From Ruminococcus flavefaciens AE3010 (GTDB lineage Bacteria; Bacillota; Clostridia; Oscillospirales; Ruminococcaceae), in contig NZ_JAGT01000001.1 of NCBI RefSeq assembly GCF_000526795.1, positions 3,206,501-3,270,500 on the forward strand: DNA of 64,000 nucleotides, given 5' to 3'. The number at the start of each line of letters is the position of its first letter. The stretch's first letter is position 1. The notes beneath the pieces were generated by a model. It was not told the origin of the DNA and did not search any database. It worked only from the letters and a program-made list of their open reading frames with translations. Below are positions 2-27,762 of the stretch, piece by piece. The translations under genes were made by a program, and so were the position numbers.

Positions 2-772
2 AAGAATATGACTCGTGGCGCCGATTCTTATGCCTCAGGTATTAACGCGCTCAGAGAATTCTCAAAGAAGACCAACGAGGATTTCGTTATATCGCCGATA
101 AACGCTATCCAAAACAAGCTCTATTCAAAATATAAAGAGAATATAGAAAGCCCTATTAGGAACAGATTTCTATATCGTCCCATTATCAGTGGCGGAGATG
201 AGATAACGCTCGTTTGCAACGCAAGAGCTGTTCCACTCATTCTTGAAACATATTTTGATACGCTGAAACAGAGCGGCGAAAATACCGCCTGTGCGGGAGT
301 AGCTATTTTCCATAGCCACGCTCCTTTTTCTGATGTTTATGAGATAGCAGAGCAATGCTGTGAAAGCGGAAAGAGAAAAGCCCATAAGGAACAATCGCAA
401 AACAAGAACTTTATTGATTTTCACTATTGCCATTCTGGAATTATCAATTCTCTCGATGCTATTCGTGAACGTCAGGAAGCCGCTTATACAAATCGTCCAT
501 ATGAGTACTCGACTTCGTGGAAAGAGTTCCAACAGCTTGGAATTCGTATTGCAGAAGAAGAAATGAAGCTTGATCGTTCCAATCTTAAGGAGCTTAGTCG
601 TGCAATGACAGAAGGTAATTCATACTATCAGGAAGAACTCAAACGTATCGCTTCTCGTCAGAAATCAGAGGAGTTCAAAAAGACTATTATCAACGGCGGA
701 AGTGAAATTATGAAAATGCTTTATGATATTTCTATTGTATACGATCTTTGGTTTATGAAGGAAGGTGAATGA
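2..772 (+). CDS. cas10: Cas10 (type III-D), C-terminal part, cut by window start
   Basis: The reading frame is open from base 2, so the true start lies upstream and only the C-terminal ~256 residues are visible. A palm-type motif SGGDEITLVC is followed by an AVPLI helix, as in the second (cyclase) palm domain of Cas10; the canonical GGDD reads GGDE here. The remaining C-terminal ~170 residues are helical and rich in Glu/Lys, as in the Cas10 D4 region. The stop codon overlaps the start of csx10 by 8 bases, so it heads the effector operon. The large subunit of type III complexes makes cyclic oligoadenylate when GGDD is intact; whether GGDE remains active cannot be read here. The HD nuclease domain would be outside the window. 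Confidence 0.85.
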   Translation, partial: KNMTRGADSYASGINALREFSKKTNEDFVISPINAIQNKLYSKYKENIESPIRNRFLYRPIISGGDEITLVCNARAVPLILETYFDTLKQSGENTACAGVAIFHSHAPFSDVYEIAEQCCESGKRKAHKEQSQNKNFIDFHYCHSGIINSLDAIRERQEAAYTNRPYEYSTSWKEFQQLGIRIAEEEMKLDRSNLKELSRAMTEGNSYYQEELKRIASRQKSEEFKKTIINGGSEIMKMLYDISIVYDLWFMKEGE

Positions 773-2687
773 ATTGGGCAAAATCTTTATCACCTTGAAA
801 TCAGATCTTTGTTCAGCAAGCGGCGACGGTTTTTCTTCAATTATAGATACAGATGTATGCTATGATAAGTATGGTTTCCCATATATAGGAGGCAGAAGGC
901 TGAAGGGCTGCCTGCGAGCTGCTGCCGAACTTATTGGTTCTCCTTATATAGATGAGATATTCGGTAAAAGTGGCTCCTCTAACCGCGGTTCTTTGTTTAT
1001 ATCAGATGCAAGATTGCCTGACATTGAGGAACTACATGCTGAAGCAAAGTGCCTTGATTCAGAAAATGTTCTTGGGCTTTTCACTTATATACGCGCATCA
1101 ACAGCGATTGAAAATGATACCGCAAAATACAATTCTCTTCGTTTTACAAGAGTTATCAAGCATTATTCTCCTTTCGACGGCAACGAACTTGTATTCTGTG
1201 CTAATGTAGAGATTAACAAGGATTATGAGCCAGAGTTTTCTGATATTTGCAAGGCACTAAGAAATATCGGATATAAACGTAACCGAGGATATGGTGCGGT
1301 TAAATGCGAATATGTTCATGGAACTGGGAAAGCTGCAACAGCTTTTGAAAGCGTATCCAAAGATGAATTGGAGATAAGATATACGCTTCGTCTCGATTCA
1401 AATCTGATGATCCCTGGACAGACCTCTGATGAGACCTCAGATCATATTCTGGGAACAGCAATGCTTGGTTTCCTCGCCGGAGAGTATCTGAAATTGTATC
1501 CGGCTGACAGTGAATTTGAGGAGATATTCCTTAAAAATAATGTTCGTTTTTCTAATCTCATTATCTCAGACCGCGCTGGTACTGAATACTTTCCTGTTCC
1601 GACTATTGTCGGCAAAATTAAAGGTGAGAGCGGTTATTTCAATATTCTCGAATCAGGGAATGAAGAGGAACGAATCATAAAACCTCTCAAAAAAGGATAT
1701 TGCAGCACTGATCTGAGCGTTGTTTCTCCGCTTACAGAAACGATTTATCATCACAGTACAGGCAAAGAAGGTACGCTTTATACGCAGACATGCCTTTGTT
1801 CAGATCAATATTTCCGAGGTTCGATAAGCGGAAAAGCTGAATTCATTCATAAACTATATCCTTTGCTGGTTTCCGGCAGTATTCATATCGGAAGAAGCAA
1901 GTCCGCTCAGTATTCATCATGCTCGCTCCATGATATAAGCCTGAATGAGGCAAAGCGCAATGAGTTTGTGATCAATCCCGACAAAACGTTTATTGTTATC
2001 GCAGCTTCTGATATTCTTCTACCTGATGGAGAAGGCGGATACAATATCTCTGTTGATGCTTTCAAAAAGTCTCTAGGTTTAGAGAGCTTAAAGCTTGATA
2101 AAGACTGCAAAAGAAAGTGTTCGGCTCTACGATACAGAACTATCGCCGGATACAATACTATGTGGAATCTGAAAAAGCCCAACGCAAGAGCGATAGCTGC
2201 TGGATCAACTTTAGTATTCAAGGCTGAAAAAGAGATGTCTCTTTCGGAAGTAATGTATATCGGAGCAAAGCAAAACGAAGGCTTCGGAAAGGTGATGATA
2301 ATTGCCGCTGACAGATTCAGAAAGCGCTCATGCAGCAGTATTTCCTCTGAGCTTTCAGAAAGCAGCAATTCAGGAAGCCTGACAGAGCTGATAGAAAAAA
2401 ATAAGAAGTCAGAATCCATAAGAATGAAAGCGATAAGATTTGTTGAGAATAACATCGGCCTTTATTCAAAGAAGGAGGTTACTCCTTCACAGGTCGGCAG
2501 GTGGATGATGATCGTTAAACAGTCAGACAGTTACGAGGAACTGCTAAAAGTAGTCAACTCAGGTAAAATTGATAACTTCAAAGAAATAGTTGTCAAAGCC
2601 GGAGCTGAGGAATACAGCGGAGACAGTTGGCCAGAGTATCTTCTGCTCATACTCAGACTTATAAAATATGCAAAGAGAGGAGAATGA
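765..2687 (+). CDS. csx10: Csx10-family RAMP protein (type III-D Cas5-like subunit)
   Basis: 640 residues with two RAMP-like halves. The N-terminal segment DLCSASGDGFSSIIDTDV followed by PYIGGRRLKGCLR is the Csx10 signature layout, and a glycine-rich loop (YKRNRGYGAV, about residue 170) closes the first ferredoxin-like fold. A second glycine-rich loop (GAKQNEGFGKV, about residue 505) closes the other. The tail (about 520-640) is helical. Csx10 marks subtype III-D and is expected to cap the crRNA 5' tag end of the complex. The ATG overlaps the cas10 stop by 8 bases and the stop overlaps the next SD region, so it is translationally coupled. Confidence 0.88.
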   Translation: MNELGKIFITLKSDLCSASGDGFSSIIDTDVCYDKYGFPYIGGRRLKGCLRAAAELIGSPYIDEIFGKSGSSNRGSLFISDARLPDIEELHAEAKCLDSENVLGLFTYIRASTAIENDTAKYNSLRFTRVIKHYSPFDGNELVFCANVEINKDYEPEFSDICKALRNIGYKRNRGYGAVKCEYVHGTGKAATAFESVSKDELEIRYTLRLDSNLMIPGQTSDETSDHILGTAMLGFLAGEYLKLYPADSEFEEIFLKNNVRFSNLIISDRAGTEYFPVPTIVGKIKGESGYFNILESGNEEERIIKPLKKGYCSTDLSVVSPLTETIYHHSTGKEGTLYTQTCLCSDQYFRGSISGKAEFIHKLYPLLVSGSIHIGRSKSAQYSSCSLHDISLNEAKRNEFVINPDKTFIVIAASDILLPDGEGGYNISVDAFKKSLGLESLKLDKDCKRKCSALRYRTIAGYNTMWNLKKPNARAIAAGSTLVFKAEKEMSLSEVMYIGAKQNEGFGKVMIIAADRFRKRSCSSISSELSESSNSGSLTELIEKNKKSESIRMKAIRFVENNIGLYSKKEVTPSQVGRWMMIVKQSDSYEELLKVVNSGKIDNFKEIVVKAGAEEYSGDSWPEYLLLILRLIKYAKRGE

Positions 2688-2689
2688 TA

Positions 2690-3985
2690 ATGGGAAATGC
2701 AATAACATACCTCAAACTTAAATTCAGCCTTGCATCTCCTCTTGCTATCGGATCGGGCAATGATTCAGTAACCGACAGTGACGTTATACTTGACAGCGCT
2801 GATGATCCGGTTATCCCTGCTACTGCTTTAGCCGGTGCCATACGCCATTTTCTTGCTGCATACGGTAATCTTGATGACAGTTTCTGGGGAACTATCGGAA
2901 ATAGCTCTGACGGCAAAGCAATTTCAAGCAGAATACGTTTCTATGATGCGGTTTTAGGATCAGATCATTTCATTACATTCAGAGACGGAGTAGCTCTGAG
3001 TAGCAAACTGCCTTCTGAGCTCCTGGAAAATGAAATGCCATATAACAAGATAGCAGTAGATGGTGCGAAATTCGATATGGAAGCTGTAGAGACAAATGCA
3101 GAATTTTCCGCTCTTATTGAGCTCCTTAACGCTTCCGAAAAGGAAAAATCAGACATAATAAAAACGCTTGCGGCTTTTGATTGCGGCGTACTCAGGATAG
3201 GATCAAAGACATCAAGAGGATACGGTCAGATCAGCATCTCATGGCTCGGAATATCAGAATTCACGCTTCCTCAGGACCGAAAAAGATGGCTTGACTTCGA
3301 TCAGTTTAATCAGGGAAATGAAGAATGCTATTCTGAAATAACCCCGAAACTGAAGGAATTCTCCGTAACAGATTTTGCAGATACCATATCATTGAAACTA
3401 AAGCAGAAGGGTGCGATATCCATCCGTTCATATACGGTCAAAGATATATCCTCTGCGGACTATACTCAGCTTTCCACAAATGACGGCGTTCCTGTTATTC
3501 CCGGCACAAGCTGGGCTGGTGCGTTCCGAAGCCGTTTCAAGGAGCTTTCAGCTGATCCTGTTCTTACGGACAAGCTGTTTGGCTTCGTAGATACCGAAAA
3601 TAACGAACAGCAGAAATCAAGAATATATTTTTCAGAGAGCAGATTAAAAAACGGAATATCCAAAATGATAACACGAAACGCTATCGACCGTTTTTCTGCC
3701 GGCGTTAAGGACGGTGCGCTGTACAGCGAAATAACCTGTTATGACAGTTGCTGTGATCTTGATATTACACTTCTGAAAGACGTAGAAGAAACCGAAAAAT
3801 GCAGGATAATAATTGCCGCTGTATTATGCGATCTTAGCAACGGATATCTTTCAATAGGCGGACTGGCATCTGTCGGACGGGGTATATTTGAAATAACCGA
3901 AATGAAACTCAATGGAAGAGATGTTACAGAAGCACTTGAAAAGTGTGATTTATCCGGAATGATGGGAGATGAAGTCAGTGAGTAA
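2690..3985 (+). CDS. csm3: Double-RAMP Cas7 (Csm3-like, Cas7-2x)
   Basis: 431 residues. The start at 2690 is chosen because GAGAGGAG at 2675-2682 gives a 7-base spacing; an ATG at 2684 would be too close. Two Cas7-type RAMP units are visible. The first has LASPLAIGSGNDSVTDSDV, PVIPATALAGAIR and the glycine-rich SKTSRGYGQISI (about residue 190). The second has PVIPGTSWAGAFRSR and the glycine-rich GGLASVGRGIFEI (about residue 400). Cas7 subunits form the crRNA-binding backbone and in type III cut target RNA through an Asp in the thumb loop; TDSDV and DISSADY regions carry candidate acids. Fused Cas7 pairs are known in subtype III-D. Confidence 0.8.
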   Translation: MGNAITYLKLKFSLASPLAIGSGNDSVTDSDVILDSADDPVIPATALAGAIRHFLAAYGNLDDSFWGTIGNSSDGKAISSRIRFYDAVLGSDHFITFRDGVALSSKLPSELLENEMPYNKIAVDGAKFDMEAVETNAEFSALIELLNASEKEKSDIIKTLAAFDCGVLRIGSKTSRGYGQISISWLGISEFTLPQDRKRWLDFDQFNQGNEECYSEITPKLKEFSVTDFADTISLKLKQKGAISIRSYTVKDISSADYTQLSTNDGVPVIPGTSWAGAFRSRFKELSADPVLTDKLFGFVDTENNEQQKSRIYFSESRLKNGISKMITRNAIDRFSAGVKDGALYSEITCYDSCCDLDITLLKDVEETEKCRIIIAAVLCDLSNGYLSIGGLASVGRGIFEITEMKLNGRDVTEALEKCDLSGMMGDEVSE

Positions 3986-4457
3986 CAGTTTTAAAACCTA
4001 TGTTAAAGAGTGTGGTGCTGTATCAGATATAAACAGTCTGGTTGGAAGGTTGATCACTGGCGGAAGCATGATACTTTTGTATACCGACAGGTTCATCTGC
4101 TGTGAACAGCGTGATATTGAAGACACCGAGCATCTGCTTGAAGCACGTATATTCAATTTACAGTCTGAGCTCAAGATAATGAGACCAACCATTGCAGATG
4201 CATTCAGCTTCAGATATATTGAAGATTCAGGACTCGTCGAAAAAAAGGACTATTTTCCTCAAGAACACTATCTTGATATTAACCCCGGCTTATCATACGG
4301 GACAAGTTATATTTCTACAGGCGGCGGAAAATACCAGCTTCCTGTCGAAAATGCAGAAAGAATACAGATACGCAACTATGTTTCATATGATGAGCAGAAT
4401 ATAGCTCAGATAACTGATTTTAGGTGCGTGCGTTATCTTGAAAAGGGGGACGAATAA
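3978..4457 (+). CDS. csx19: Csx19 family protein (type III-D accessory subunit)
   Basis: 159 residues from a GTG start at 3978, which sits 9 bases after GGGAG (3964-3968); an in-frame ATG at 3969 abuts that SD and is less likely. No enzymatic motif is visible. Size, position next to csx10 and RAMP genes, and the pattern (aromatic-rich centre with LSYGTSYISTGGGKYQLP, then IQIRNYVSYDEQ.IAQITDFRCVRY) fit the Csx19 family that accompanies Csx10 in subtype III-D. Its role is unknown; it is presumably structural. The stop TAA overlaps the following ATG (TAATG), indicating tight coupling. Confidence 0.75.
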   Translation: MSNSFKTYVKECGAVSDINSLVGRLITGGSMILLYTDRFICCEQRDIEDTEHLLEARIFNLQSELKIMRPTIADAFSFRYIEDSGLVEKKDYFPQEHYLDINPGLSYGTSYISTGGGKYQLPVENAERIQIRNYVSYDEQNIAQITDFRCVRYLEKGDE

Positions 4458-6214
4458 TGGGCGGCTTTATTAATCCATATACTTTTATCCCAGTCAACGA
4501 CGGCAATAAGAAGAGTCTCCGCGAGTACTATAACAGCAGCGCCGATCTTATCAGCGGAAAGATTGAATGCACGCTGTTTACTCGTTCACAGATAGCATTA
4601 TGCGACGAGGTGTCTGAAGGATTATTTGATTTTTTCAACGTCAACGGCAAACCAGTTATACCCGGAAGCAGCCTGAGAGGAACTATCAGAAGCTTGTACG
4701 AAGCTCTTACGGATTCCTGTTTTTCGTCGACTAATGATACTGATGAAGATTATTTCAGTTCAAGGCTCAACAAGAATAAGTGCGGACTGCTTTGCATGGA
4801 GAATGGCAAGTATGTACTCTATGAAGCCAAAAGATATAAGGATGAGTCAAATAAATGGGTCAGGAATATCCCTGAGGGAACGCTGGTCACATTCAATTCT
4901 TATACCTCCGAAAAGAAAAAAAATGATGAAGCACAGGACAATAATAAAAAAGTACATGAAGAGATATTTTATTTCAGAGATGTGAATTCCCCCGATTCTG
5001 AGAAAAAAGGCTATGTCCACAAGGTCAATCGTATTCTGTCGCAAGGGAGGCAAAACCTTGACAGTGTATTTGAAAAGGTTAGCGACACAGGAATAAACAT
5101 ACGCCCTTATTACATAAATAGATTTGAAGTAAACATCAAAAAAAGCTTAAAAGCATTAGAAAAGGATAAGGATAAGCTTCAAAAACTGGTAGCATATAAC
5201 AACCAATTTGAGGAAATACAAAGAAATGAAAAAGCGATGCTACCCGTATGGTATTGCTATTTAGACGGGCATTACTATTTTGCACCGTCGCAGATGTCAA
5301 GAGCGGTTTTTTATAACAAGCCGATAGACTTGCTCAGAAATAAACGCCTTGAAAAATGCGCCGATATTAATAATATTTGCGACGCCTGCGCTCTTTTCGG
5401 AACAGTAAACGATGACGGCTTTGCGCTGTCGTCAAGGGTGAGGTTCGGCGATGCGGTTTGCGTTACTCCCGACTGCCTTGATGAAAGCTATATCCTTGAC
5501 ATTCTTGGCGCACCGAGACTTTCTTCGTTTGAGTTCTATCTCAAGTATAAAGGTAAAGATAAAAGTTATACAGCCGATACTCCGGGAGTTGAAATAGCCG
5601 GAAGAAAATACTACTGGCACAATCGGTATATTGCATCGCACCCGATATGTAAAGACGCCGTAGTTAAGGAGAATTTAAAACGTAAAGTCCAGCTTGTCAA
5701 GAAAGGTAGCGAATTTCGTTTCACGGTCTATTTTGACAAAATTACCGGGGAGCAACTCAGAAAGCTGGCGTTTACCCTTACTCTCGGCGATAACAGGAGC
5801 GATTCAAAGCAGTGCCACAAGATAGGTCACGGAAAGCCGCTTGGTCTTGGCTCAGCAAAGATAGTTTGTGACAGGATAACTGTCAGGAAGTTTGAATATC
5901 CCGAATACATCGAAAAGGACATGACCGATATTATCAATCCCGACCTGCAAAACGTATTTGAAAATCAGACAAATGTGGATAATGTATTGAAAGTCACGAA
6001 TATCAATACTGTAAACGGCAAATACATAAGCTATCCATATAGTACTGATGGCAATGGAGTATTCAAGTGGTTTGCTAATAATCGGCCAACGCTGAAAAAA
6101 ATCGGAGAACCTCTCAAATATATTGATAAGCTGCCGAAACTTACAGATGAAGATCAAACGCTGATCTGCAACAGCTACCAAGGCAATAAAAAACGCTCAT
6201 CACAAAAAAAGTGA
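4457..6214 (+). CDS. TIGR03986-type CRISPR RAMP protein
   Basis: 585 residues. The N-terminus MGGFINPYTFIPV is the hallmark of the TIGR03986 family of type III RAMP proteins. RAMP features include PVIPGSSLRGTIRSLYEAL (about residue 75), a Cys-containing insertion CADINNICDACALFGTVNDDGFALSSRVRFGDA (about 300-330; possibly metal-binding), and a glycine-rich loop IGHGKPLGLGSAKI near 465. In type III complexes such proteins act as end-capping Cas7-like subunits. It is the last gene of the operon, converging with cas6; a shared inverted repeat at 6225-6256 separates them. Confidence 0.82.
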   Translation: MGGFINPYTFIPVNDGNKKSLREYYNSSADLISGKIECTLFTRSQIALCDEVSEGLFDFFNVNGKPVIPGSSLRGTIRSLYEALTDSCFSSTNDTDEDYFSSRLNKNKCGLLCMENGKYVLYEAKRYKDESNKWVRNIPEGTLVTFNSYTSEKKKNDEAQDNNKKVHEEIFYFRDVNSPDSEKKGYVHKVNRILSQGRQNLDSVFEKVSDTGINIRPYYINRFEVNIKKSLKALEKDKDKLQKLVAYNNQFEEIQRNEKAMLPVWYCYLDGHYYFAPSQMSRAVFYNKPIDLLRNKRLEKCADINNICDACALFGTVNDDGFALSSRVRFGDAVCVTPDCLDESYILDILGAPRLSSFEFYLKYKGKDKSYTADTPGVEIAGRKYYWHNRYIASHPICKDAVVKENLKRKVQLVKKGSEFRFTVYFDKITGEQLRKLAFTLTLGDNRSDSKQCHKIGHGKPLGLGSAKIVCDRITVRKFEYPEYIEKDMTDIINPDLQNVFENQTNVDNVLKVTNINTVNGKYISYPYSTDGNGVFKWFANNRPTLKKIGEPLKYIDKLPKLTDEDQTLICNSYQGNKKRSSQKK

Positions 6215-6261: not shown

Positions 6262-7002
6262 TTATATGCTATGATAACGAACGCTTCCCATTCCTATCGC
6301 AGTTTTGATACCTATGCCCGAGAATTCAGAAAAGCGGCAAAGCATACGGATATAGCTCCTGAACTCAGTCGGAGCTTTTACACGCATGGTAATACTGCCC
6401 TTGAAGGAGGGAATCTTCACGCCCTCAAGTGAGAATGAAGCACTTGACAGCTCATAATCAGTAACTTTAATGTATTTGTCTATATCATTGAAAAGGTCAT
6501 CATAGTTATTATCATCAATGCCGAAAAAGGCGTCAAAGCGTTTTGCGAGGCTCTGAAATATCAGTCTGAGGGTGGGAAGTATGATATAGCTGCCGTTGCT
6601 TTTAAAGGCGGTGGGAGTGGTAAACTCCAGTGTCAGTATATCGCTTGCGTCTGAGGAGACGGCGTTTTCAGACAGCAACTGCTGATATGACAATATCTCA
6701 GTATCAGCACAGCCAAACGTGATAATATCGTCTTTATGCTTTACGCAAGCGCTTTTGAGTGAAAGAAGAGGAGTAATGATATTATCGTAAGCTTCGCGGC
6801 TGAGAGTTGAAACAGTCCATACGTTTTGTCCGTTCAGACAGCATGAATACTGACTGTAAGGGCGGAGCGAAAGGCTGTGCATTTTTTTGGCATAAAACGC
6901 AGGGATAGTCTCCATCATTATCCCCTGCATAAGTGATGAAGCATAAAAGTTATAACGTAGGCCCTTCTGACTTTCAAATGGCAGTATTATTTTACAAAGC
7001 AA
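6262..7002 (-). CDS. cas6: Cas6 CRISPR repeat endonuclease
   Basis: 246 residues with a TTG start at 7002 preceded by GAGGG at suitable spacing. The C-terminal glycine-rich signature FSGIGIKTAIGMGSVRY is the classical Cas6 loop that contacts the repeat RNA. Near the N-terminus His and Tyr residues (RPYSQYS, MHSLSL) are available for metal-independent cleavage. Cas6 cuts the repeat to leave an 8-nt 5' tag, here predicted to be ACGGAAAC from the 3' end of each repeat. It is divergent from array 1, so the region 7003-7295 holds its promoter as well as the array leader. Confidence 0.9.
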   Translation of the reverse strand: MLCKIILPFESQKGLRYNFYASSLMQGIMMETIPAFYAKKMHSLSLRPYSQYSCCLNGQNVWTVSTLSREAYDNIITPLLSLKSACVKHKDDIITFGCADTEILSYQQLLSENAVSSDASDILTLEFTTPTAFKSNGSYIILPTLRLIFQSLAKRFDAFFGIDDNNYDDLFNDIDKYIKVTDYELSSASFSLEGVKIPSFKGSITMRVKAPTEFRSYIRMLCRFSEFSGIGIKTAIGMGSVRYHSI

Positions 7003-7090: not shown

Positions 7091-7119
7091 TTGACATTTT
7101 ATCAAAAACATGATATTAT
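7091..7119 (+). promoter_or_regulatory. Promoter of CRISPR array 1
   Basis: TTGACA (7091-7096), 17-base spacer, TATTAT (7114-7119). The same arrangement, including CTTGACATTT, precedes all three arrays. The predicted start lies at about 7124-7128. Confidence 0.8.
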
Positions 7120-7123
7120 AATA

Positions 7124-7180
7124 GTGCGAACCTATGAAAAGTGAGTTGCAAAACAACCTCAAAAAAAGGAGGTTCGCACC
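7124..7180 (+). promoter_or_regulatory. Inverted repeat at the 5' end of the array 1 precursor RNA
   Basis: GTGCGAACCT (7124-7133) and AGGTTCGCAC (7171-7180) are perfect 10-bp arms. The loop contains GAGTTGCAAAACAACCTC and AAAGGAGG. The left arm sequence recurs right after the promoters of arrays 2 and 3 but without a nearby partner, so only array 1 has the closed hairpin. Bases 7181-7295 have no gene and no further structure that I can see. Confidence 0.6.
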
Positions 7181-7295
7181 TCAAAAACGGCTGTTTATGA
7201 ATAAGCTATGAACAAAAATGCGATTTTTGAGCTTGAATTATTAATGCAACAGTAAGATAATGAACTGTTTTGTACAAAAGCAGTAATTTCTTGGT

Positions 7296-7600
7296 GTTGC
7301 AACTTACACCCCTCACGGGGACGGAAACGTTCGTACCGATGTTTTCTACGTAAAAGGAATGAAGTTGCAACTCACACCCCTCACGGGGACGGAAACTCAG
7401 TCCATAACGGCATTGGTTCGATCTTTTTGAAGTTGCAACTCATACCCCTCACGGGGACGGAAACTCACTATAGAGTATGTTTCTCAGATAAAAATATAAA
7501 GTTGCAACTCATACCCCTCACGGGGACGGAAACGATTGGCACATAGCATATCCCTCCAAAAATATAAGTTGCAACTCATACCCCTCACGGGGACGGAAAC
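7296..7600 (+). CRISPR. CRISPR array 1 (5 repeats, 4 spacers)
   Basis: Five 33-nt repeats begin at 7296, 7364, 7432, 7501 and 7568; the last ends at 7600. Repeats start GTTGCAACTCACACCCC and end TCACGGGGACGGAAAC. CCCC-TCAC-GGGG gives the small hairpin and ACGGAAAC is the expected type III 5' tag. Spacers are 35, 35, 36 and 34 nt. Repeats vary at two positions (CTTACACC, CTCACACC, CTCATACC). Transcription is from the promoter at 7091. It lies next to cas6 and the III-D operon. Confidence 0.97.
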
Positions 7601-7665
7601 AAAAAAAGACTAAGCTTCGGCTTAGTCTTTTTTCTTTATCCCGAAATTTTTTTTGGGAATTTTTT
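7601..7665 (+). terminator. Double terminator trailer of array 1
   Basis: Directly abutting the last repeat: GACTAAGC-TTCG-GCTTAGTC (7608-7627) flanked by A- and T-runs, a strong bidirectional terminator. A second hairpin, TCCCGAAA...TTTTGGGA (7639-7658), is followed by five Ts. The same pair follows arrays 2 and 3. Confidence 0.88.
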
Positions 7666-7670
7666 ATTTA

Positions 7671-7702
7671 TCACTTAATTCTTTATTTCTCCGATCTATT
7701 AT
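7671..7702 (+). promoter_or_regulatory. Bipartite promoter-like box P1
   Basis: TCACTTAAT (7671-7679), 17 bases, TATTAT (7697-7702, extended to TATTATATA). It is one of five copies with invariant spacing. Downstream to P2 there is only a short GGGCAT...ATGCTCC remnant, so P1 may belong to a decayed unit or be a second start for the same genes. Confidence 0.7.
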
Positions 7703-7758
7703 ATAACAGAAGGGCATGAAACACATGAAAAATGCTCCGAAAAAATTTTTTCGCTTAT

Positions 7759-7790
7759 CACTTAATCCAATGCAATTACAGTCTATTATA
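7759..7790 (+). promoter_or_regulatory. Bipartite promoter-like box P2
   Basis: TCACTTAAT (7759-7767), 17 bases, TATTAT (7785-7790), then ATAACAGAAAGGCA as at P1 and P4. It is positioned to transcribe the hairpin leader, peptides 1-2 and the GTPases. Confidence 0.75.
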
Positions 7791-7804
7791 TAACAGAAAG
7801 GCAC

Positions 7805-7835
7805 GGAGCTCACAGAAAGGAGGTCAAAGAGCTCC
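7805..7835 (+). promoter_or_regulatory. SD-bearing GAGCTC leader hairpin H1
   Basis: GGAGCTC (7805-7811) pairs with GAGCTCC (7829-7835). The 17-nt loop carries AAAGGAGG, an SD-like sequence that is not at a start codon; an outer GGCA/TGCC extension is possible. Related hairpins precede peptides 3, 4 and 5. Confidence 0.65.
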
Positions 7836-7882
7836 CATGCCGCACACATATATCAACCTGCGACCTTTAAGGAGGAATTTAC

Positions 7883-7987
7883 ATGAACAAGAACATACTG
7901 GTTAAGATCCTTTCAGCAACAGTTAAGATCATCGAGACAGCAATAGACATAATCAACACATCCGACGACAACAACAAGCCCGCATGA
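7883..7987 (+). CDS. 34 aa amphipathic peptide 1
   Basis: Preceded by TTTAAGGAGGAATTTACATG, a very strong ribosome site. The peptide begins MNKNILVKILSATVKII and continues as an Ile/Val-rich helix with Lys at 3, 8 and 15 and acids at 18 and 22, ending in a polar SDDNNKPA tail. The heptad-like spacing gives one hydrophobic face. Its first 25 residues are identical to those of peptide 4, with near-identical DNA, so the two are a recent duplication. No cysteine or export signal is seen. The pattern resembles membrane-active peptides such as type I toxins or phenol-soluble modulins, but homology is not claimed. It is in one likely operon with peptide 2 and the GTPases. Confidence 0.75.
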   Translation: MNKNILVKILSATVKIIETAIDIINTSDDNNKPA

Positions 7988-8004
7988 AAAAGGAGGATAT
8001 AAAA

Positions 8005-8106
8005 ATGAATAAAAAAGTTATCATCGGCATTATCTCAGCGGCAATAACCCTTATCGAGGCAGCAATAACCATTATCCAGGCATCAGACGAGAATAACAAC
8101 AAGTGA
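8005..8106 (+). CDS. 33 aa hydrophobic peptide 2
   Basis: AAAAAGGAGGATATAAAAATG supplies the ribosome site 17 bases after peptide 1. The peptide starts MNKKVIIGIISAAITLIEA, has a central Ile/Ala helix of about 22 residues with one Glu, and ends with a polar SDENNNK tail like peptide 1. It is more hydrophobic and less basic than peptide 1, so the pair could be two subunits of one assembly; this is inference. The next gene (GTPase 1) starts 20 bases later with its own strong SD. Confidence 0.75.
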   Translation: MNKKVIIGIISAAITLIEAAITIIQASDENNNK

Positions 8107-8126
8107 AAAACAGGAGGTAAAAAAGA

Positions 8127-9116
8127 ATGGAAAAGAATATTTACAGTGAGATCGAGGAGATCATCAACAGCGAAGCCCTTAACGAAGAAACCAAGGCAAA
8201 ACTTATGCTGGCACTTACCAAACTCAGAAACGAAAAACTCAATATACTCATTACAGGCGGTACGGGCAGCGGCAAAAGTTCAACAATAAACGCAATGTTC
8301 GGAGAGGAGGTGGCTAAAGTTGGAATAGGCGTAGACCCCGAAACCATGGAAATCGAAAAATATTCTTTAGGCAATATGATACTGTGGGACAGCCCGGGAC
8401 TCGGAGACGGCAAGGAAGCAGACAACAAACACGCAAAAAACATCATAAAAAAGCTTACCGAAAAAGACGAAAACGGAAACGCACTCATTGACCTTGTACT
8501 TGTAATACTCGACGGCAGCAGCAGAGACCTCGGAACTTCATATGAACTTATCAATAATGTTATAATCCCGAACCTTGGCCAAAACAGAGAAGGCAGAATA
8601 CTTGTGGCAATCAATCAGGCAGACATGGCGATGAAGGGCAGAAACTGGGAAACGGAAAGCAACAGACCAAACGCAGAACTCACCGCATTCCTTGACGCCA
8701 AAGCAGAATCCATCAAAAACCGTATATACGCAGCAACAGGAGTCAAAGTCGAACCTATATATTACAGTGCAGGATACACAGACGGAACGTCAAAGCAGAA
8801 CCCCTATAACCTTTCCAAGCTTTACAGTTACATACTCAAAATGACTCCAAAGGAAAAAAGACTTGCTTACTGCGACAATATCAACAAGGATCCGAATGTA
8901 TGGAAGGATAACGACGAGCTCAGGGACTATTCAAAGGAAATCAAAAACAGCTACATGGAAACAATATCGGAATTTGCAGAGACAGGCGGTAATATAGGCG
9001 AGGATATAGGCAGTAATTTCGGAACAGTAGGCAGAGTAGCAGGCAGAGTAGTAGGAACAGTTGTTGGCGGTGCAGTAGGAGTTGTTGTAAGTATTTTCAG
9101 AGGTCTGTTTTCTTAA
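8127..9116 (+). CDS. P-loop GTPase 1 with hydrophobic C-terminal tail
   Basis: 329 residues. The TRAFAC-type G domain (about 35-215) shows G1 GGTGSGKSS (44-52), G3 DSPG (88-91) and G4 NQAD (163-166), resembling the 50S-binding/YfjP-like GTPase group. An N-terminal ~35-residue helix precedes it. The last ~40 residues are Gly/Val-rich without charged clusters except spaced Arg (GRVAGRVVGTVVGGAVGVVV), a glycine-zipper-like segment that could insert in or bind membrane. It is clearly related to GTPase 2 (shared KVG.G.DPETMEI, NQADMAMKGR, EATGV-type segments), so it arose by duplication. It follows two small hydrophobic peptides in the same operon. A defence role is inferred from location between CRISPR arrays. 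Confidence 0.85.
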   Translation: MEKNIYSEIEEIINSEALNEETKAKLMLALTKLRNEKLNILITGGTGSGKSSTINAMFGEEVAKVGIGVDPETMEIEKYSLGNMILWDSPGLGDGKEADNKHAKNIIKKLTEKDENGNALIDLVLVILDGSSRDLGTSYELINNVIIPNLGQNREGRILVAINQADMAMKGRNWETESNRPNAELTAFLDAKAESIKNRIYAATGVKVEPIYYSAGYTDGTSKQNPYNLSKLYSYILKMTPKEKRLAYCDNINKDPNVWKDNDELRDYSKEIKNSYMETISEFAETGGNIGEDIGSNFGTVGRVAGRVVGTVVGGAVGVVVSIFRGLFS

Positions 9117-9134
9117 TATTGACAAATAATAAAT

Positions 9135-9162
9135 GTGCTCCGTTCTTTCGGGGGCGGAGCAC
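9135..9162 (+). promoter_or_regulatory. GC-rich hairpin upstream of GTPase 2
   Basis: GTGCTCCG (9135-9142) and CGGAGCAC (9155-9162) form an 8-bp stem immediately before the AGAAAGGAG ribosome site. It lacks a T-run, so it is more likely a leader structure than a terminator. Confidence 0.5.
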
Positions 9163-9180
9163 AGAAAGGAGTGAAGTAAT

Positions 9181-9873
9181 ATGACAAACCTTAAGAATTA
9201 CAGAAAAGACGACATCGAGACAAGACTAAACATTGCAGGCTTCAGACCACTTGATATACTGGTGGTAGGTGCAACAGGCGCAGGCAAATCTACTACATTG
9301 AACGCTATCCTCAACGGCAGCTCGGCTAAAGTCGGAACAGGAACTGACCCCGAAACAATGGAGATAGACGATTATTCTCTGAACGATCATGTAAGATTAT
9401 GGGATACTCCTGGGCTGGGCGACGGAGTGAAAAGAGACGAAGAACACTCAAGAAAACTTGTTGATATGCTCTATAAAACCTACAGTCTGAACGGTCACAA
9501 ATACGGATTTATTGATATAGTTCTTATACTGATAGACGGTACGGTCAGGGATATGGGAACAGTGTTTAAGCTTATCAATAATATCATTATCCCTAATTTC
9601 CAGAAGGAGCGCATTATAGTTGCAATAAATCAGGCAGATATGGCAATGAAGGGCAGACACTGGAACGAATACAGCAATACTCCCGATGAAGAACTCAGGC
9701 AATTCCTTGAAGCAAAGGCAGATTCGATCAGAGAAAGGATTCACGAAGCAACAGGAGTGTGGATAAACAAGCCCGTATATTATTCGGCAGAGCATAAATA
9801 CAACATCAAGGCGCTGTATGACAGACTTATCGACAGCATTCCAGCTCGCCGTCGTCCTCTGGTGACTGATTGA
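9181..9873 (+). CDS. P-loop GTPase 2 (short paralogue)
   Basis: 230 residues. G1 GATGAGKST (30-38), G3 DTPG (75-78) and G4 NQAD (150-153) are intact. It aligns with GTPase 1 over the whole G domain but lacks both the long N-terminal helix and the hydrophobic C-terminal tail, stopping after ARRRPLVTD. That suggests a soluble partner for the tailed paralogue, as seen for paired or heteromeric GTPases; inference only. The AAAGGAG ribosome site is 7-8 bases upstream and 64 bases separate it from GTPase 1, without a clear terminator. Array 2's promoter begins 45 bases after its stop. Confidence 0.85.
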   Translation: MTNLKNYRKDDIETRLNIAGFRPLDILVVGATGAGKSTTLNAILNGSSAKVGTGTDPETMEIDDYSLNDHVRLWDTPGLGDGVKRDEEHSRKLVDMLYKTYSLNGHKYGFIDIVLILIDGTVRDMGTVFKLINNIIIPNFQKERIIVAINQADMAMKGRHWNEYSNTPDEELRQFLEAKADSIRERIHEATGVWINKPVYYSAEHKYNIKALYDRLIDSIPARRRPLVTD

Positions 9874-9918
9874 AAAAGCTGGTTTGGGGACAAATGAAAC
9901 GGTTTTTTGGATAAAAGC

Positions 9919-9947
9919 TTGACATTTATGTTTGAATGTGCTATCAT
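9919..9947 (+). promoter_or_regulatory. Promoter of CRISPR array 2
   Basis: TTGACA (9919-9924), 17-base spacer, TATCAT (9942-9947), then AAAGGTGCAAACCT. The first repeat begins only 16 bases after the -10 box, so there is practically no leader. Confidence 0.8.
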
Positions 9948-9963
9948 AAAGGTGCAAACCTAT

Positions 9964-10066
9964 GGTGCAACTCACACCCCTCACGGGGACGGAAACGCAC
10001 CGATTGAACAACCTATAACTGCGATACTACCAAGTTGCAACTCACACCCCTCACGGGGACGGAACA
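9964..10066 (+). CRISPR. CRISPR array 2 (2 repeats, 1 spacer)
   Basis: Repeat copies at 9964-9996 and 10034-10066 flank one 37-nt spacer (9997-10033). The first copy has a changed 5' end (GGTGCAAC for GTTGCAAC). The last copy has a changed 3' end (ACGGAACA for ACGGAAAC). It is oriented as the other arrays, with the shared promoter and trailer. Confidence 0.92.
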
Positions 10067-10070
10067 AAAC

Positions 10071-10135
10071 AAAAAGACTAAGCTTCGGCTTAGTCTTTTT
10101 TCTTTATCCCGAAAAATTTTTTTCGGGATTTTTTT
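10071..10135 (+). terminator. Double terminator trailer of array 2
   Basis: GACTAAGC-TTCG-GCTTAGTC (10076-10095) with A/T runs, then TCCCGAAAAA...TTTCGGGA (10107-10127) and a T-run. Near identical to the array 1 trailer. Confidence 0.88.
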
Positions 10136-10140
10136 ATTTA

Positions 10141-10172
10141 TCACTTAATTTCACTTCTGACCGGTCTATTAT
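10141..10172 (+). promoter_or_regulatory. Bipartite promoter-like box P3
   Basis: TCACTTAAT (10141-10149), 17 bases, TATTAT (10167-10172). It is the only such box upstream of the viperin-like gene; the leader here is short and lacks a GAGCTC hairpin. Confidence 0.72.
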
Positions 10173-10216
10173 ATAGTGAACGTACAAACACCCGACACCT
10201 GCAAGGAGGTAGTATT

Positions 10217-11095
10217 ATGAAAAAGCTTAAAGTTAATCTTCACCTTATCGAAGCCTGCAATTACAGATGCCGCCATTGTTTCGCACACTTTGACAAACAT
10301 AATGTACTCACACCTGAAACATGGATAAACATAATAGATAACGCAGTAGCATCAGGCATGGTAACTTCTTTTAATTTCGCAGGCGGCGAACCGCTCCTTT
10401 ACCCTCATCTGACTTCTCTCGCAGAATACGCAAACAGCCTCGGCTGTAAATGCAGCGTCATAACAAACGGCTCATGTATAGACGAAGAATGGATAAAGAA
10501 TAACGTATCACTTTTTACTACTATCGGTTTCTCATTAGACAGCTTCTTCCCGGATACGCTTAGAAAAATCGGACGTTGTGACACAAATGGCAGAGTTCTC
10601 GATCTTGACAGGATAAAGGAAATATTCACACTTATAAAGAAATACAATCCCAGCATAAAAATCAAGGTAAACACTGTTGTATCAGCTATCAATAAAGACG
10701 AAACCCCGGGCGAACTTATCAGAAAGCACGATCTCCCCGTTGACCGCTGGAAAATACTCAGAATGTCCCCGTTTGAAAACGACCGCTTCAGCAACAAGGA
10801 TATAACAGTTACAGACGAAGAATACACAGAATACATAACAAGAAATCTCTCAGCTTTCGGAATCAACACTATCTCAGAAAAGGTACTCTACAACACAGAC
10901 GCAGGTATGGAGATCGTATGCGAAAGCAACCTCAATGGCACATACATCATGATAGACGCAGGCGGATACCTTGTAGACGATACTAAAAATTCAAACTATG
11001 TTCGTGTTATAAACTGCGCAGACACTCCATTCTCAGACGGAATCAGCAAACTTACATTCGACTCGGAAATATACGAAGCACGTTATAAGAAATAA
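10217..11095 (+). CDS. Prokaryotic viperin-like radical SAM enzyme (pVip)
   Basis: 292 residues; SD AAGGAGG 7-8 bases before the ATG. The radical SAM [4Fe-4S] motif is C14-x3-C18-x2-C21 (ACNYRCRHCF). It is followed by viperin-family landmarks: FNFAGGEPLLYP, SVITNGS, IGFSLDSF, an IGR turn, IKVNTVVSAINKDE, VDRWKILRM and MIDAGGYLVDD near the C-terminus. Viperins convert CTP, GTP or UTP to chain-terminating 3'-deoxy-3',4'-didehydro nucleotides and restrict phages. The product nucleotide cannot be predicted here. No membrane anchor is present, as in other bacterial viperins, and no nucleotide kinase gene is adjacent. It stands alone between array 2 and the peptide 3 unit. Another radical SAM family is possible but fits less well. 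Confidence 0.87.
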   Translation: MKKLKVNLHLIEACNYRCRHCFAHFDKHNVLTPETWINIIDNAVASGMVTSFNFAGGEPLLYPHLTSLAEYANSLGCKCSVITNGSCIDEEWIKNNVSLFTTIGFSLDSFFPDTLRKIGRCDTNGRVLDLDRIKEIFTLIKKYNPSIKIKVNTVVSAINKDETPGELIRKHDLPVDRWKILRMSPFENDRFSNKDITVTDEEYTEYITRNLSAFGINTISEKVLYNTDAGMEIVCESNLNGTYIMIDAGGYLVDDTKNSNYVRVINCADTPFSDGISKLTFDSEIYEARYKK

Positions 11096-11105
11096 TTTTG
11101 AGATA

Positions 11106-11137
11106 TCACTTAATTCGTTGTTTACCAAATCTATTAT
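11106..11137 (+). promoter_or_regulatory. Bipartite promoter-like box P4
   Basis: TCACTTAAT (11106-11114), 17 bases, TATTAT (11132-11137), then ATAACAGAAGGGCA. It begins 11 bases after the viperin stop and serves the peptide 3-5 unit. Confidence 0.75.
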
Positions 11138-11151
11138 ATAACAGAAGGGCA

Positions 11152-11185
11152 GGGAGCTCGTCCGAAAGGAGGTCAAAGAGCTCCC
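11152..11185 (+). promoter_or_regulatory. SD-bearing GAGCTC leader hairpin H2
   Basis: GGGAGCTC (11152-11159) pairs with GAGCTCCC (11178-11185); an outer GCAG/CTGC extension is possible. The loop holds GAAAGGAGG. It is followed by CATACGCAAGTCGGTAAACA, which recurs after H4. Confidence 0.68.
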
Positions 11186-11238
11186 GTCCTGCATACGCAA
11201 GTCGGTAAACACACTCTCATTTCTAAGGAGGAATTCAC

Positions 11239-11328
11239 ATGAATGTTAAAGCAATAATCACGGTCATCACAACAGTCGGAACCATCGCAGAAGCTACAGT
11301 CAAACTCATTAAGGCCGTGAAAAAGTAA
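11239..11328 (+). CDS. 29 aa amphipathic peptide 3
   Basis: The ribosome site TCTAAGGAGGAATTCACATG is nearly identical to those of peptides 1, 4 and 5. The peptide begins MNVKAIITVITTVGTIAEA and ends TVKLIKAVKK, so it is a hydrophobic helix with a basic C-terminus, unlike the acidic/Asn tails of peptides 1, 2 and 4. Charge +3 or so with Thr/Val/Ile face suggests membrane interaction. No homologue is recognised. It is first in the P4 unit, 110 bases before peptide 4. Confidence 0.72.
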   Translation: MNVKAIITVITTVGTIAEATVKLIKAVKK

Positions 11329-11362
11329 GAAACACCACCTGATACGACACCACCAAGATTCA

Positions 11363-11411
11363 GCAGTGTAGGAGCTCACAGTAAAAGAGGGGGACAAAGC
11401 TCCTGCACTGC
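11363..11411 (+). promoter_or_regulatory. GAGCTC-type hairpin H3
   Basis: GCAGTGTAGGAGCT (from 11363) pairs with AGCTCCTGCACTGC (to 11411), a 14-position stem with one T-G pair. The loop contains AAAAGAGGGGG, a weaker SD-like run. Confidence 0.65.
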
Positions 11412-11449
11412 TCACTAATCCCCTCTGTCACCTTTAAGGAGGAATTCAC

Positions 11450-11545
11450 ATGAATAAGAACATACTGGTTAAGATCCTTTCAGCAACAGTTAAGATCATC
11501 GAGACAGCAATAGACATAATCAATTCATCCAACGACAACAAGTAA
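11450..11545 (+). CDS. 31 aa amphipathic peptide 4 (duplicate of peptide 1)
   Basis: Ribosome site CCTTTAAGGAGGAATTCACATG. Residues 1-25 are identical to peptide 1 and the DNA differs at very few positions, while the tail reads SSNDNK instead of TSDDNNKPA. Conservation of the helix with drift confined to the polar tail suggests the helix is the functional part, or simply a recent duplication. It lies between hairpins H3 and H4 in the P4 unit without a GTPase partner beside it. Confidence 0.75.
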   Translation: MNKNILVKILSATVKIIETAIDIINSSNDNK

Positions 11546-11572
11546 GGAAAACAAGTACAAGACAAACTTTTA

Positions 11573-11608
11573 CAGGAGCTCGTCAGGAAGGAGGTTTGCG
11601 GGCTCCTG
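11573..11608 (+). promoter_or_regulatory. SD-bearing hairpin H4
   Basis: CAGGAGC (11573-11579) pairs with GCTCCTG (11602-11608); the loop carries GGAAGGAGG. The downstream CATACGCAAGTTGGTAACACA matches the sequence after H2. Confidence 0.65.
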
Positions 11609-11659
11609 CCAAACATACGCAAGTTGGTAACACACTCATTTTTTCAAGGAGGAATTCTT

Positions 11660-11869
11660 ATGGCAAATAGAATTATATATCCTAATCCTTATCCTTACCC
11701 AACAACATCAACTTCTCTTATCCTTGTAACTATAGCACTCGAGGTCGTATTCTTTATACTTAATCTTATCCTTTTAGGCAAAACAGAATCAGAAGCATTC
11801 AGGAAAGCATCAGCAAAGTACAATATCCCCGTTGACACAGTAAAGGACATCTGGAAAAAGCACAAGTGA
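11660..11869 (+). CDS. 69 aa single-TM peptide 5
   Basis: Start at 11660 follows CAAGGAGGAATTCTTATG. The N-terminus is Pro/Tyr-rich (YPNPYPYP), followed by a transmembrane segment at about residues 19-41 and a charged C-terminal ~28 residues (KTESEAFRKASAKYNIPVD, then VKDIWKKHK) that looks like a small helix-turn-helix-like or coiled segment. This tail resembles the short DNA- or protein-binding tails of small phage-type membrane proteins, but I cannot assign it. It ends the P4 unit; hairpin H5 and the promoter of array 3 follow. Confidence 0.8.
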   Translation: MANRIIYPNPYPYPTTSTSLILVTIALEVVFFILNLILLGKTESEAFRKASAKYNIPVDTVKDIWKKHK

Positions 11870-11886
11870 TCCGACACATTCCGCAT

Positions 11887-11938
11887 GGTCAGGAGCTCAA
11901 AACGCAGGCAGGAGCTCCTGACCGCAACAACTGCCTGC
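11887..11938 (+). promoter_or_regulatory. Hairpin H5 with possible H-type pseudoknot
   Basis: GGTCAGGAGCTC (11887-11898) and GAGCTCCTGACC (11912-11923) form a perfect 12-bp stem. The loop plus one base, GCAGGCAG (11904-11911), is exactly complementary to CTGCCTGC (11931-11938). No SD and no T-run. It lies 33 bases upstream of the -35 box of array 3. Confidence 0.55.
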
Positions 11939-11971
11939 AAAGACGTATCAAACAAATTATTTGCAAATCGC

Positions 11972-12000
11972 TTGACATTTTTATTTAAATGTGCTATCAT
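11972..12000 (+). promoter_or_regulatory. Promoter of CRISPR array 3
   Basis: TTGACA (11972-11977), 17 bases, TATCAT (11995-12000), then AAAGGTGCGAACCT. Same layout as for array 2. Confidence 0.8.
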
Positions 12001-12016
12001 AAAGGTGCGAACCTGT

Positions 12017-12318
12017 AGCGCAACTCACACCCCTCACGGGGACGGAAACTCTCTTTTAGTTTCGAGATGAATTGTCTTGCCGTGTTGCAACTCACCCCCC
12101 TCACGGGGACGGAAACCCTTCTACCTCATATACGATGAGGATTTGTTATGGTTGCAACTCATACCCCTCACGGGGACGGAAACTCACGGCAGTACGTCCC
12201 CCTATGGCGCAGTATGGCGTTGCAACTCACACCCCTCACGGGGACGGAAACATATGCACTTCTTTTATTCTTACCTTCTTTTTCAGTTGCAACTCACACC
12301 CCTCACGGGGACGGAAAC
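12017..12318 (+). CRISPR. CRISPR array 3 (5 repeats, 4 spacers)
   Basis: Repeats begin at 12017, 12084, 12151, 12219 and 12286, ending at 12318; spacers are 34, 34, 35 and 34 nt. The first copy is altered at its 5' end (AGCGCAAC for GTTGCAAC); the second reads CACCCCCC for CACACCCC. The 3' part TCACGGGGACGGAAAC is unchanged in all. Confidence 0.97.
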
Positions 12319-12350
12319 AAAAAAAGACTAAGCTTCGGCTTAGTCTTTTT
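12319..12350 (+). terminator. Terminator trailer of array 3
   Basis: GACTAAGC-TTCG-GCTTAGTC between A- and T-runs, abutting the last repeat. The second hairpin (12357-12378) is degenerate compared with the other two arrays. Confidence 0.85.
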
Positions 12351-12386
12351 GCTTTATCCCGAAATATTTTCGGTTTTTTATATTTA

Positions 12387-12470
12387 TCACTTAATCTGAT
12401 TCTATTCTGGACTATAATAAAAAAGCAGTGGGCGGAGTAAAAAAGTATGGCGGAGCTGAGCTTCTGCCAA
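12387..12470 (+). promoter_or_regulatory. Box P5 and a decayed leader hairpin
   Basis: TCACTTAAT (12387-12395), 17 bases, TATAAT (12413-12418). Downstream GGCGGAGCTGAGCTTCTGCC (12450-12469) looks like a degraded GAGCTC hairpin and is followed by no peptide gene. The unit seems to have lost its cargo at the island border. Confidence 0.6.
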
Positions 12471-18492: not shown

Positions 18493-18527
18493 CTAATGAA
18501 AAATGATACAGAGAGTCCCCGTGAGGG
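18493..18527 (+). repeat. Left half of a dispersed hairpin element split by IS4
   Basis: Reads ATGAAAAATGATACAGAG then AGTCCCCGTGAGGG. Together with GGACTTCTTCG right of the IS (20150 on) it rebuilds AGTCCCC-GTGA-GGGGACT, a 7-bp hairpin. A second copy of the flank lies at 34855-34905 (reverse strand). Confidence 0.6.
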
Positions 18528-20141: not shown

Positions 20142-20175
20142 CCCGTGAGGGGACTTCTTCGTTCAATATGTATTC

Positions 20176-27685: not shown

Positions 27686-27762
27686 ATTTTTTCTCATATA
27701 GGGCTCGCTCTGGTTTATTACAGGCTTTTTTTATTTTGGGCGAGCCCTATATGAGAAAAAAT
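27686..27762. repeat. 77-bp palindromic MITE-like element
   Basis: Perfect 23-bp inverted arms at 27686-27708 and 27740-27762 (CTCATATAGGGCTCGC / GCGAGCCCTATATGAG with A/T ends) around a 31-bp AT-rich centre without coding capacity. Confidence 0.6.

Follow-up and report, generated by a model that had tools for sequence, protein, structure and literature searches.

A type III-D CRISPR island of Ruminococcus flavefaciens as a probable inducible immune regulon with a CARF and sigma-like gene pair

What makes a set of the short CRISPR arrays and non-Cas genes that alternate in a type III-D island of Ruminococcus flavefaciens AE3010 (GCF_000526795.1)? The island was examined in a window of 64,000 nt (NZ_JAGT01000001.1:3206501-3270500, forward strand) and, because the window cuts the island, in the adjoining 18.5 kb upstream (L008). 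Features given by window position lie on the forward strand, except cas6. The genome is 3.7 Mb in three contigs and is 98.9% complete, and the comparison set comprised 396 genomes of the family, 125 of them of the same genus. In about 19 kb the island holds five CRISPR arrays, eight copies of a promoter box and six operons headed by it. Here we describe the island as an inducible immune regulon, in which a CARF protein sensing cyclic oligoadenylate (cOA) and its sigma-like partner would fire the cas and cargo operons from the box. We give this reading a probability of roughly 0.7.

The box consists of an unusual, long -35 element (TCACTTAAT), a 17-bp spacer and a -10 element, TATTATA. Five copies occur in the window, against 0.00 in shuffled sequence. 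Genome-wide, TCACTTAAT-N(15-19)-TATWATA has seven exact matches, all on one strand and inside 18,093 bp, and its reversed control has none; an eighth, at L008:10608, has a single change in its -10. Among the 396 family genomes the exact box (spacing 16-18) is found in seven, with seven sites in AE3010 and one in each of the other six. The reversed control gave 10 matches in nine genomes, which puts the six singletons at control level. The initial annotation had taken the units of the window for one set, and the set survives a search for its elements elsewhere: the exact box and the trailer that ends each array are island-only throughout the genome.

The operons behind the boxes are varied. In order, the three upstream boxes (the -10 variant at L008:10608, L008:11827 and L008:12980) precede a 32-amino-acid (aa) peptide (L008:10738), a 68-aa peptide with a 96-aa protein (L008:11952 and 12249), and the cas operon (L008:13098 into the window). 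The later boxes precede two peptides and two GTPases (tandem boxes 1 and 2, 7671..7703 and 7758..7790), a viperin (box 3, 10141..10173), three peptides (box 4, 11106..11138, with no repeat within 250 nt upstream) and nothing (box 5, 12387..12419, with no convincing open reading frame (ORF) behind it and none by the ORF rule in the next 640 nt). The cas operon, itself preceded by a box, has an additional TTGACA-N17-TAAAAT at L008:13064, 51 nt past that box; a scan of six other intervals, allowing each hexamer up to one mismatch, turned up no site of the TTGACA type. As far as the sequence can indicate, the sensing parts thus look both constitutive and inducible and the cargo inducible only.

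The cas operon encodes, in order, a Csx20-like protein, a CARF-HEPN protein of the Csx1/Csm6 type, a stand-alone CARF protein, a 322-aa orphan, Cas10, Csx10, a Cas7-type protein, Csx19 and a second Cas7-type protein. The type III-D gene set assigned by PADLOC (Cas10, Csx10/Cas5-IIId, Cas7-IIId and Csx19) is present. The 3' part of cas10 opens the window (8..772; whole gene L008:16792-18273; PF22335 1.7e-10, PADLOC Cas10d 2.5e-88). It is followed by csx10, the Cas5 of III-D (765..2687, Cas5_IIId 1.2e-105), a Cas7-type RAMP of III-D (2690..3985, Cas7_IIId 8e-86), the Cas11-like csx19 (3969..4457, 7.9e-10) and a second Cas7-type RAMP of III-D (4457..6214, Cas7_IIId 1.4e-102), with cas6 on the reverse strand (6262..7002, PF10040 2.3e-17, PADLOC Cas6_IIIa 4.1e-64). 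The 493-aa Cas10 reads GGDE at the presumed cyclase motif, and Pfam reported no HD domain in it. GGDE is among the published variants of likely active cyclases, and HD domains occur in only 3% of III-D systems, suggesting that III-D acts mainly via cOA signalling (PMC11229360). A second, weak Cas10-palm-like match (E 5.6e-5), in a 441-aa open frame, lies elsewhere in the genome at C1:2954244-2954537. A search of the genome for Cas1 at E<=0.001 was negative, with the control positive in 9 of 14 genomes.

The leading genes of the operon are signalling genes. The CARF-HEPN gene matches its PADLOC profile at 2.7e-43, and the stand-alone CARF (PDLC01821) at 2.3e-84 over residues 1-202 of 204, with no effector domain. 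The Csx20-like gene is a weak PADLOC match (0.001); a homologue stands at the equivalent position in the same-genus genome G503, and the Csx20 genes of two other CARF loci are strong (G111 1.8e-36, G479 1.5e-26). Csx20 has been reported to degrade cyclic tetraadenylate (cA4; PMC12409355). Lon, CHAT and SAVED gave no match in the Csx20-like, CARF-HEPN, CARF and orphan genes, to which this search was confined.

The 322-aa protein behind the CARF, for which Pfam, NCBIfam and PADLOC offer no name, was identified as a putative diverged sigma-70-family factor. Sigma-70 domain 2 (regions 1.2-2.4) was recognised in it and is its best-supported part; single-sequence Pfam matches to sigma factors stayed below cut-off. 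The region 4 helix-turn-helix (HTH) scored 15.6 in the protein's own group, against a shuffle maximum of 16.4, and 25.2 against 17.8 in the g77 group. A profile match in G423 was rejected as a family member because it is an ordinary extracytoplasmic function (ECF) sigma factor, and for the same reason it counts toward the sigma-factor homology of the profile. The protein database holds ten relatives. Collections of genome contigs, viral contigs and plasmids yielded no homologues, and a sequence search of the PDB with the profile returned nothing up to E 1.

The pairing of the two genes is conserved. With the profile of the stand-alone CARF, at E<=1e-15, 22 loci were located in 18 of the 396 genomes, and at 14 of these loci the gene directly behind the CARF matches the sigma-like (A4) profile: four are in the profile itself, five match at E<=1.6e-8 and five at 2e-4 to 8e-3. 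A locus missed by the ORF rule, G284a, adds a match at 0.0053 and brings the pair to 15 of 22 loci. The two reading frames often touch or overlap. At the seven loci with no partner shown, the CARF is followed by another gene (G002, G254b), by a gene with no match (G111b), by a short ORF only (G056, G079), by the contig end (G254a) or by a match at E 0.046 only (G393). Type III-D genes lie in the fetched stretches of G393, G327, G111, G323, G348, G479 and G497, and the Cas10 palm domain is present in 15 of 21 genomes examined. It was not found in the 66%-complete G503 nor in the divergent sigma subgroup (G031, G275, G284, G319 and G221). The loci of this subgroup (L122-L126 and L128) have CARF and a divergent sigma-like gene, in genomes with no detectable Cas10 and no box.

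The box recurs beside the pair. In the 125 genomes of the genus, a degenerate box (CMCTTAAT-N17-TMTTAYM) has at least three sites only in G000 (six), G497 (four) and G503 (four, three of them beside the pair). Elsewhere in the genus there is one site in each of 15 genomes and two, on different contigs, in G485; the reversed control gave 11 matches in nine genomes, and the same-genus G019 and G479, with divergent sigma genes, have no site. In G503 three tandem units each hold a box (TCCCTTAAT-N17-TATTACATA) and a 10-aa ORF, two of them also a 37-aa peptide, and Csx20, CARF-HEPN, CARF and the sigma-like gene follow to the contig end. Scored with a matrix built solely from the AE3010 boxes, the three reach 22.5 bits, against a maximum of 15.1 over 60 shuffles. 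The four boxes of G497 have an altered -10 (TCTTACC) and by the same matrix score no better than shuffles; G497 also has two ORFs of 10 aa and a 29-aa peptide that resembles the AE3010 micropeptides.

A related box is found in two other genera, at the loci of G327 (L117), G077 (L118) and G111 (L120). A de novo search of the G327 locus for 6+N(16-18)+6 dyads returned CTTAAT-N17-GTATAT six times and no dyads in three shuffles; the other frequent dyads there come from array repeats. Among the 396 genomes, AAACTTAAT-N17-GTATA has 32 sites in 11 genomes: 11 in G077, nine in G327, four in G111 and one in each of eight others, against 18 matches in 17 genomes, at most two in any, for the reversed control. 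All three multi-site genomes carry the CARF-sigma pair (7.9e-5 against 18 CARF genomes, for a pattern that came from their own contigs). The loci of G348, G479, G019, G323 and G393 and those of the Cas10-less group showed no CTTAAT-type cluster. In all, computation shows box clustering at CARF-sigma loci in six genomes of three genera. Since G497 and G503 contributed to the degenerate box, and the contigs of G327, G077 and G111 supplied the AAACTTAAT variant, recovery of these genomes is circular and the informative part is the absence of clusters in the remaining ones.

The genes behind these boxes again include the signalling genes. In G327 and G111 a box precedes the CARF-sigma genes; in G111 one precedes the strong Csx20, and others a 97-aa relative of the 96-aa cargo protein of AE3010 and a 26-aa cationic peptide. 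Lipoproteins with transglutaminase domains follow boxes in both G327 and G077; CAP, Sel1-repeat and MORN-like proteins do so in one of these two genomes or the other. The box-preceded surface lipoproteins, MORN-like and Sel1 proteins (L117 12288-16454 and L118 3224-9741) form an unusual arsenal for a CRISPR-linked promoter.

We propose that these parts would work as follows. Ordinary sigmaA-type promoters would transcribe the arrays and, at a basal level, the cas operon. On meeting phage RNA the Cas10 complex would make cOA, probably cA4. The stand-alone CARF is predicted to bind it and to release or activate its operon partner, the diverged sigma-70-family factor, which would direct RNA polymerase to the box. 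Transcription from the box would cover the cas operon, giving positive feedback, and the other operons, which encode the hydrophobic or amphipathic micropeptides, two GTPases of the immunity type and the viperin. The Csx20-type ring nuclease of the same operon would end the signal.

The sigma-like factor is put forward as the reader of the box because box and gene occur together. The box could instead be a sigmaA promoter with an activator or repressor site at its -35, the sigma-like protein being a DNA-binding activator modulated by the CARF. The -10, TATTATA, does resemble that of sigmaA, and the C-terminal HTH of the protein's own group is not significantly region-4-like. However, the 17-bp spacing is kept while the half-sites vary (TCACTTAAT/TATTATA, CCCTTAAT/TATTACA, CACTTAAT/TCTTACC and AACTTAAT/GTATA), which suits one two-domain reader touching both better than an activator with sigmaA, and the best-supported part of the protein is domain 2, the part of sigma factors that binds the -10 and polymerase. 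We therefore regard the activator model as unlikely and favour a sigma-like reader gated by the CARF.

The arrays raise a different question, namely whether shared flanks mean shared control. The three arrays of the window have one repeat type: array 1 (7296..7600) has five repeats and four spacers, array 2 (9964..10066) two and one, and array 3 (12017..12318) five and four. Two more lie upstream, at L008:11151-11753 and from L008:12738. A TTGACA-N17-TAT(C/T)AT promoter precedes all five; the sigmaA-like copies in the window are at 7091..7119 (TTGACA-N17-TATTAT), 9919..9947 and 11972..12000. The leaders of arrays 2 and 3 are truncated at the same point, and this loss of the inner part has brought the promoter next to the first, altered repeat. 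Behind each array of the window stands the same double terminator (copies at 7603..7632, where the second, T-rich terminator comes after it, 10071..10100 and 12321..12350). Its 30-nt trailer core occurs five times in the genome (at most two mismatches), each time behind one of the five island arrays; the trailers would stop array transcription. Terminator, then box, follow 5/5 arrays. One-type arrays with TTGACA promoters, double-terminator trailers, box and cargo are thus arranged as the initial annotation described them; the two upstream arrays, the three upstream boxes, that of the cas operon among them, and the CARF and sigma-like genes extend its account beyond the window.

The five near-identical trailers, the duplicated leaders and the two leaders cut at one point would suit a spread of cassettes by recombination between CRISPR leaders and trailers, with the shared flanks reflecting co-location and not co-regulation. 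Array, terminator, box and cargo also occur in that order once in G077 (59 nt from the last repeat core to the box at L118:7512) and once in G111 (47 nt to the box at L120:13496), with a hairpin and a T-run between repeat and box. However, boxes outside AE3010 mostly lack a repeat in the 250 nt before them (7/8 on L118, 3/4 on L120 and 7/7 on L117), a crude array finder found no array on L033, and the box precedes cas and CARF-sigma genes too. Recombination as the whole explanation is thus quite improbable. Array-box adjacency is a recurring, not a required, design, and may mark the place of cassette gain. The initial annotation's modular defence system is supported as to modularity, since the order is found in G077 and G111 with other repeats. 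Its suggestion that arrays may be integration or recombination scaffolds would fit the duplicated leaders and trailers. The coordination of the modules is better explained by a promoter of their own and a sigma-like factor encoded in the island, given the boxes that have no nearby repeat. The stretches with this order are L118 7110-7512 and L120 13250-13500, with repeats unlike those of AE3010. That the cargo peptides are toxins silenced by crRNA-like array RNAs, as in CreTA-type addiction, would suit very small hydrophobic ORFs near mini-arrays of one to four spacers, but type III complexes target RNA, and on the fetched contig of G503 the peptide units stand next to the CARF-sigma pair in the absence of any array, which leaves this explanation far-fetched.

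The cargo of the proposed regulon fits its first description as a GTPase pair, peptides and a viperin-like enzyme, here of the prokaryotic viperin (pVip) type. The viperin (10217..11095; NCBIfam NF038283 270.4 bits, cut-off 180; PADLOC pVip 1.9e-69) has the CxxxCxxC motif, reading CNYRCRHC. GTPase 1 (8127..9116) is IRG/AIG1-like (IIGP 34.6 bits, cut-off 24; AIG1 32, cut-off 27), with a Gly-rich, hydrophobic C-terminus, and GTPase 2 (9181..9873) is AIG1/MMR_HSR1-like and over the Pfam cut-offs for AIG1 (33.2) and IIGP (24.7). Micropeptides 1 to 4 have 34, 33, 29 and 31 aa (7883..7987, 8005..8106, 11239..11328 and 11450..11545), the fourth being a near copy of the first. Peptide 5 has 69 aa and one hydrophobic segment (11660..11869), and a relative at L008:11952-12158. 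Four micropeptides of the island, like those of G497 and G503, begin with MN or MK and have a hydrophobic core, and hydrophobic moments suggest that they form amphipathic or membrane-seeking helices. From its family membership, the cargo is predicted to be antiviral.

Hairpins accompany the peptide ORFs. Leader hairpins lie at 7794..7850 (stem GGAGCTC/GAGCTCC, z -3.10, with changes on both pair sides among copies) and 11141..11196 (z -4.05), and others before micropeptide 4 (11363..11408, z -3.46), before peptide 5 (11566..11625, z -2.26) and after it (11882..11945, z -3.76). The island has nine copies (z -2.2 to -5.0), with both-side changes in 7 of 13 consensus pairs. The leader hairpin is not claimed as island-specific, as a loose form of its stem has 93 plus 97 matches across the genome.

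Searches with the spacers and repeats gave little. The spacers of array 1 and both upstream arrays had only chance-level matches to phages (BLAST of two stretches), and 19-23 nt pieces of four spacers had 0 exact matches each in IMG/VR. In Rfam the repeats match CRISPR-DR37 below the gathering score, and other matches look like chance. A DDE transposase element has copies at 18514-20155 in the window and L008:5350-6963. Its terminal inverted repeat and the CRISPR repeat have 13 nt (CCCTCACGGGGAC) in common, a 13-mer that the window contains only in the 12 array repeats and at this transposon end. Some kilobases before the island, L008:2491-5187 encodes an 898-aa protein with a NACHT-type NTPase and pentapeptide repeats, possibly another defence gene. 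At 27686-27762, beside a gene with GH43, GH30 and dockerin domains, lies an inverted repeat with perfectly matching arms of 23 nt, 31 nt apart.

The literature examined describes two circuits in which a sigma factor is coupled to a type III system, both of them driven by a protease. In CASP-sigma of III-E, with Csx29 and Csx30, a CRISPR-encoded sigma factor is under the control of target-RNA recognition, as proposed here; a protease switched on by the guide-RNA complex cleaves an anti-sigma factor, and CASP-sigma sites within the locus were predicted for cas1 and two unknown genes, with tests by reporter (PMC10028731). The AE3010 island differs in having a CARF as the partner, in the lack of any match to a protease among the four leading genes, and in a predicted regulon made up of several effector operons. 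The CalpL-CalpT-CalpS system is likewise a cOA-controlled sigma circuit of type III, but uses a SAVED-Lon protease and a cleaved anti-sigma factor, CalpT, where the island has a stand-alone CARF adjoining the sigma-like gene (PMC11229360). Csa3 and other CARF-HTH regulators also link CARF to transcription, with CARF and a winged HTH on one chain and not, as here, on separate chains with a sigma-type fold (PMC4012209). A sigma-like HTH has been described in BrxL and is not a CARF pair (PMC12839542). In the titles and abstract openings covered by the literature search, which left out most subscription journals, neither a CARF-sigma pair nor a viperin in a type III regulon is described. Among the cargo, the viperin is over the curated pVip cut-off and differs from known pVips in its place behind a CRISPR-island promoter. 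The micropeptides, like type I toxin-type peptides, are of about 30 aa and hydrophobic or amphipathic, and differ in being several related copies behind one promoter class.

A broader reading, to which we lean only slightly, is that such islands represent a class of CRISPR-linked immune regulons under a protease-free, ligand-gated pair, in which the CARF acts directly as anti-sigma or co-sigma factor. The pair would turn the recognition of target RNA into induction of exchangeable arsenals, with viperin, IRG-like GTPases and micropeptides here, and transglutaminase or CAP surface lipoproteins and Sel1 proteins in another genus. Through the box, effector genes can be sought by their promoter instead of by homology, even peptides that annotation misses for their small size, and a single reporter suffices to test the function. 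What is mostly known of type III CRISPR signalling is the activation of effectors already in the cell; if the regulon is as proposed, the type III signal would induce transcription of a stored arsenal. Viperin and IRG-type GTPases are interferon-induced in animals, and here both are placed behind one bacterial promoter class. The island regulon would then be a prokaryotic counterpart of the interferon-stimulated genes.

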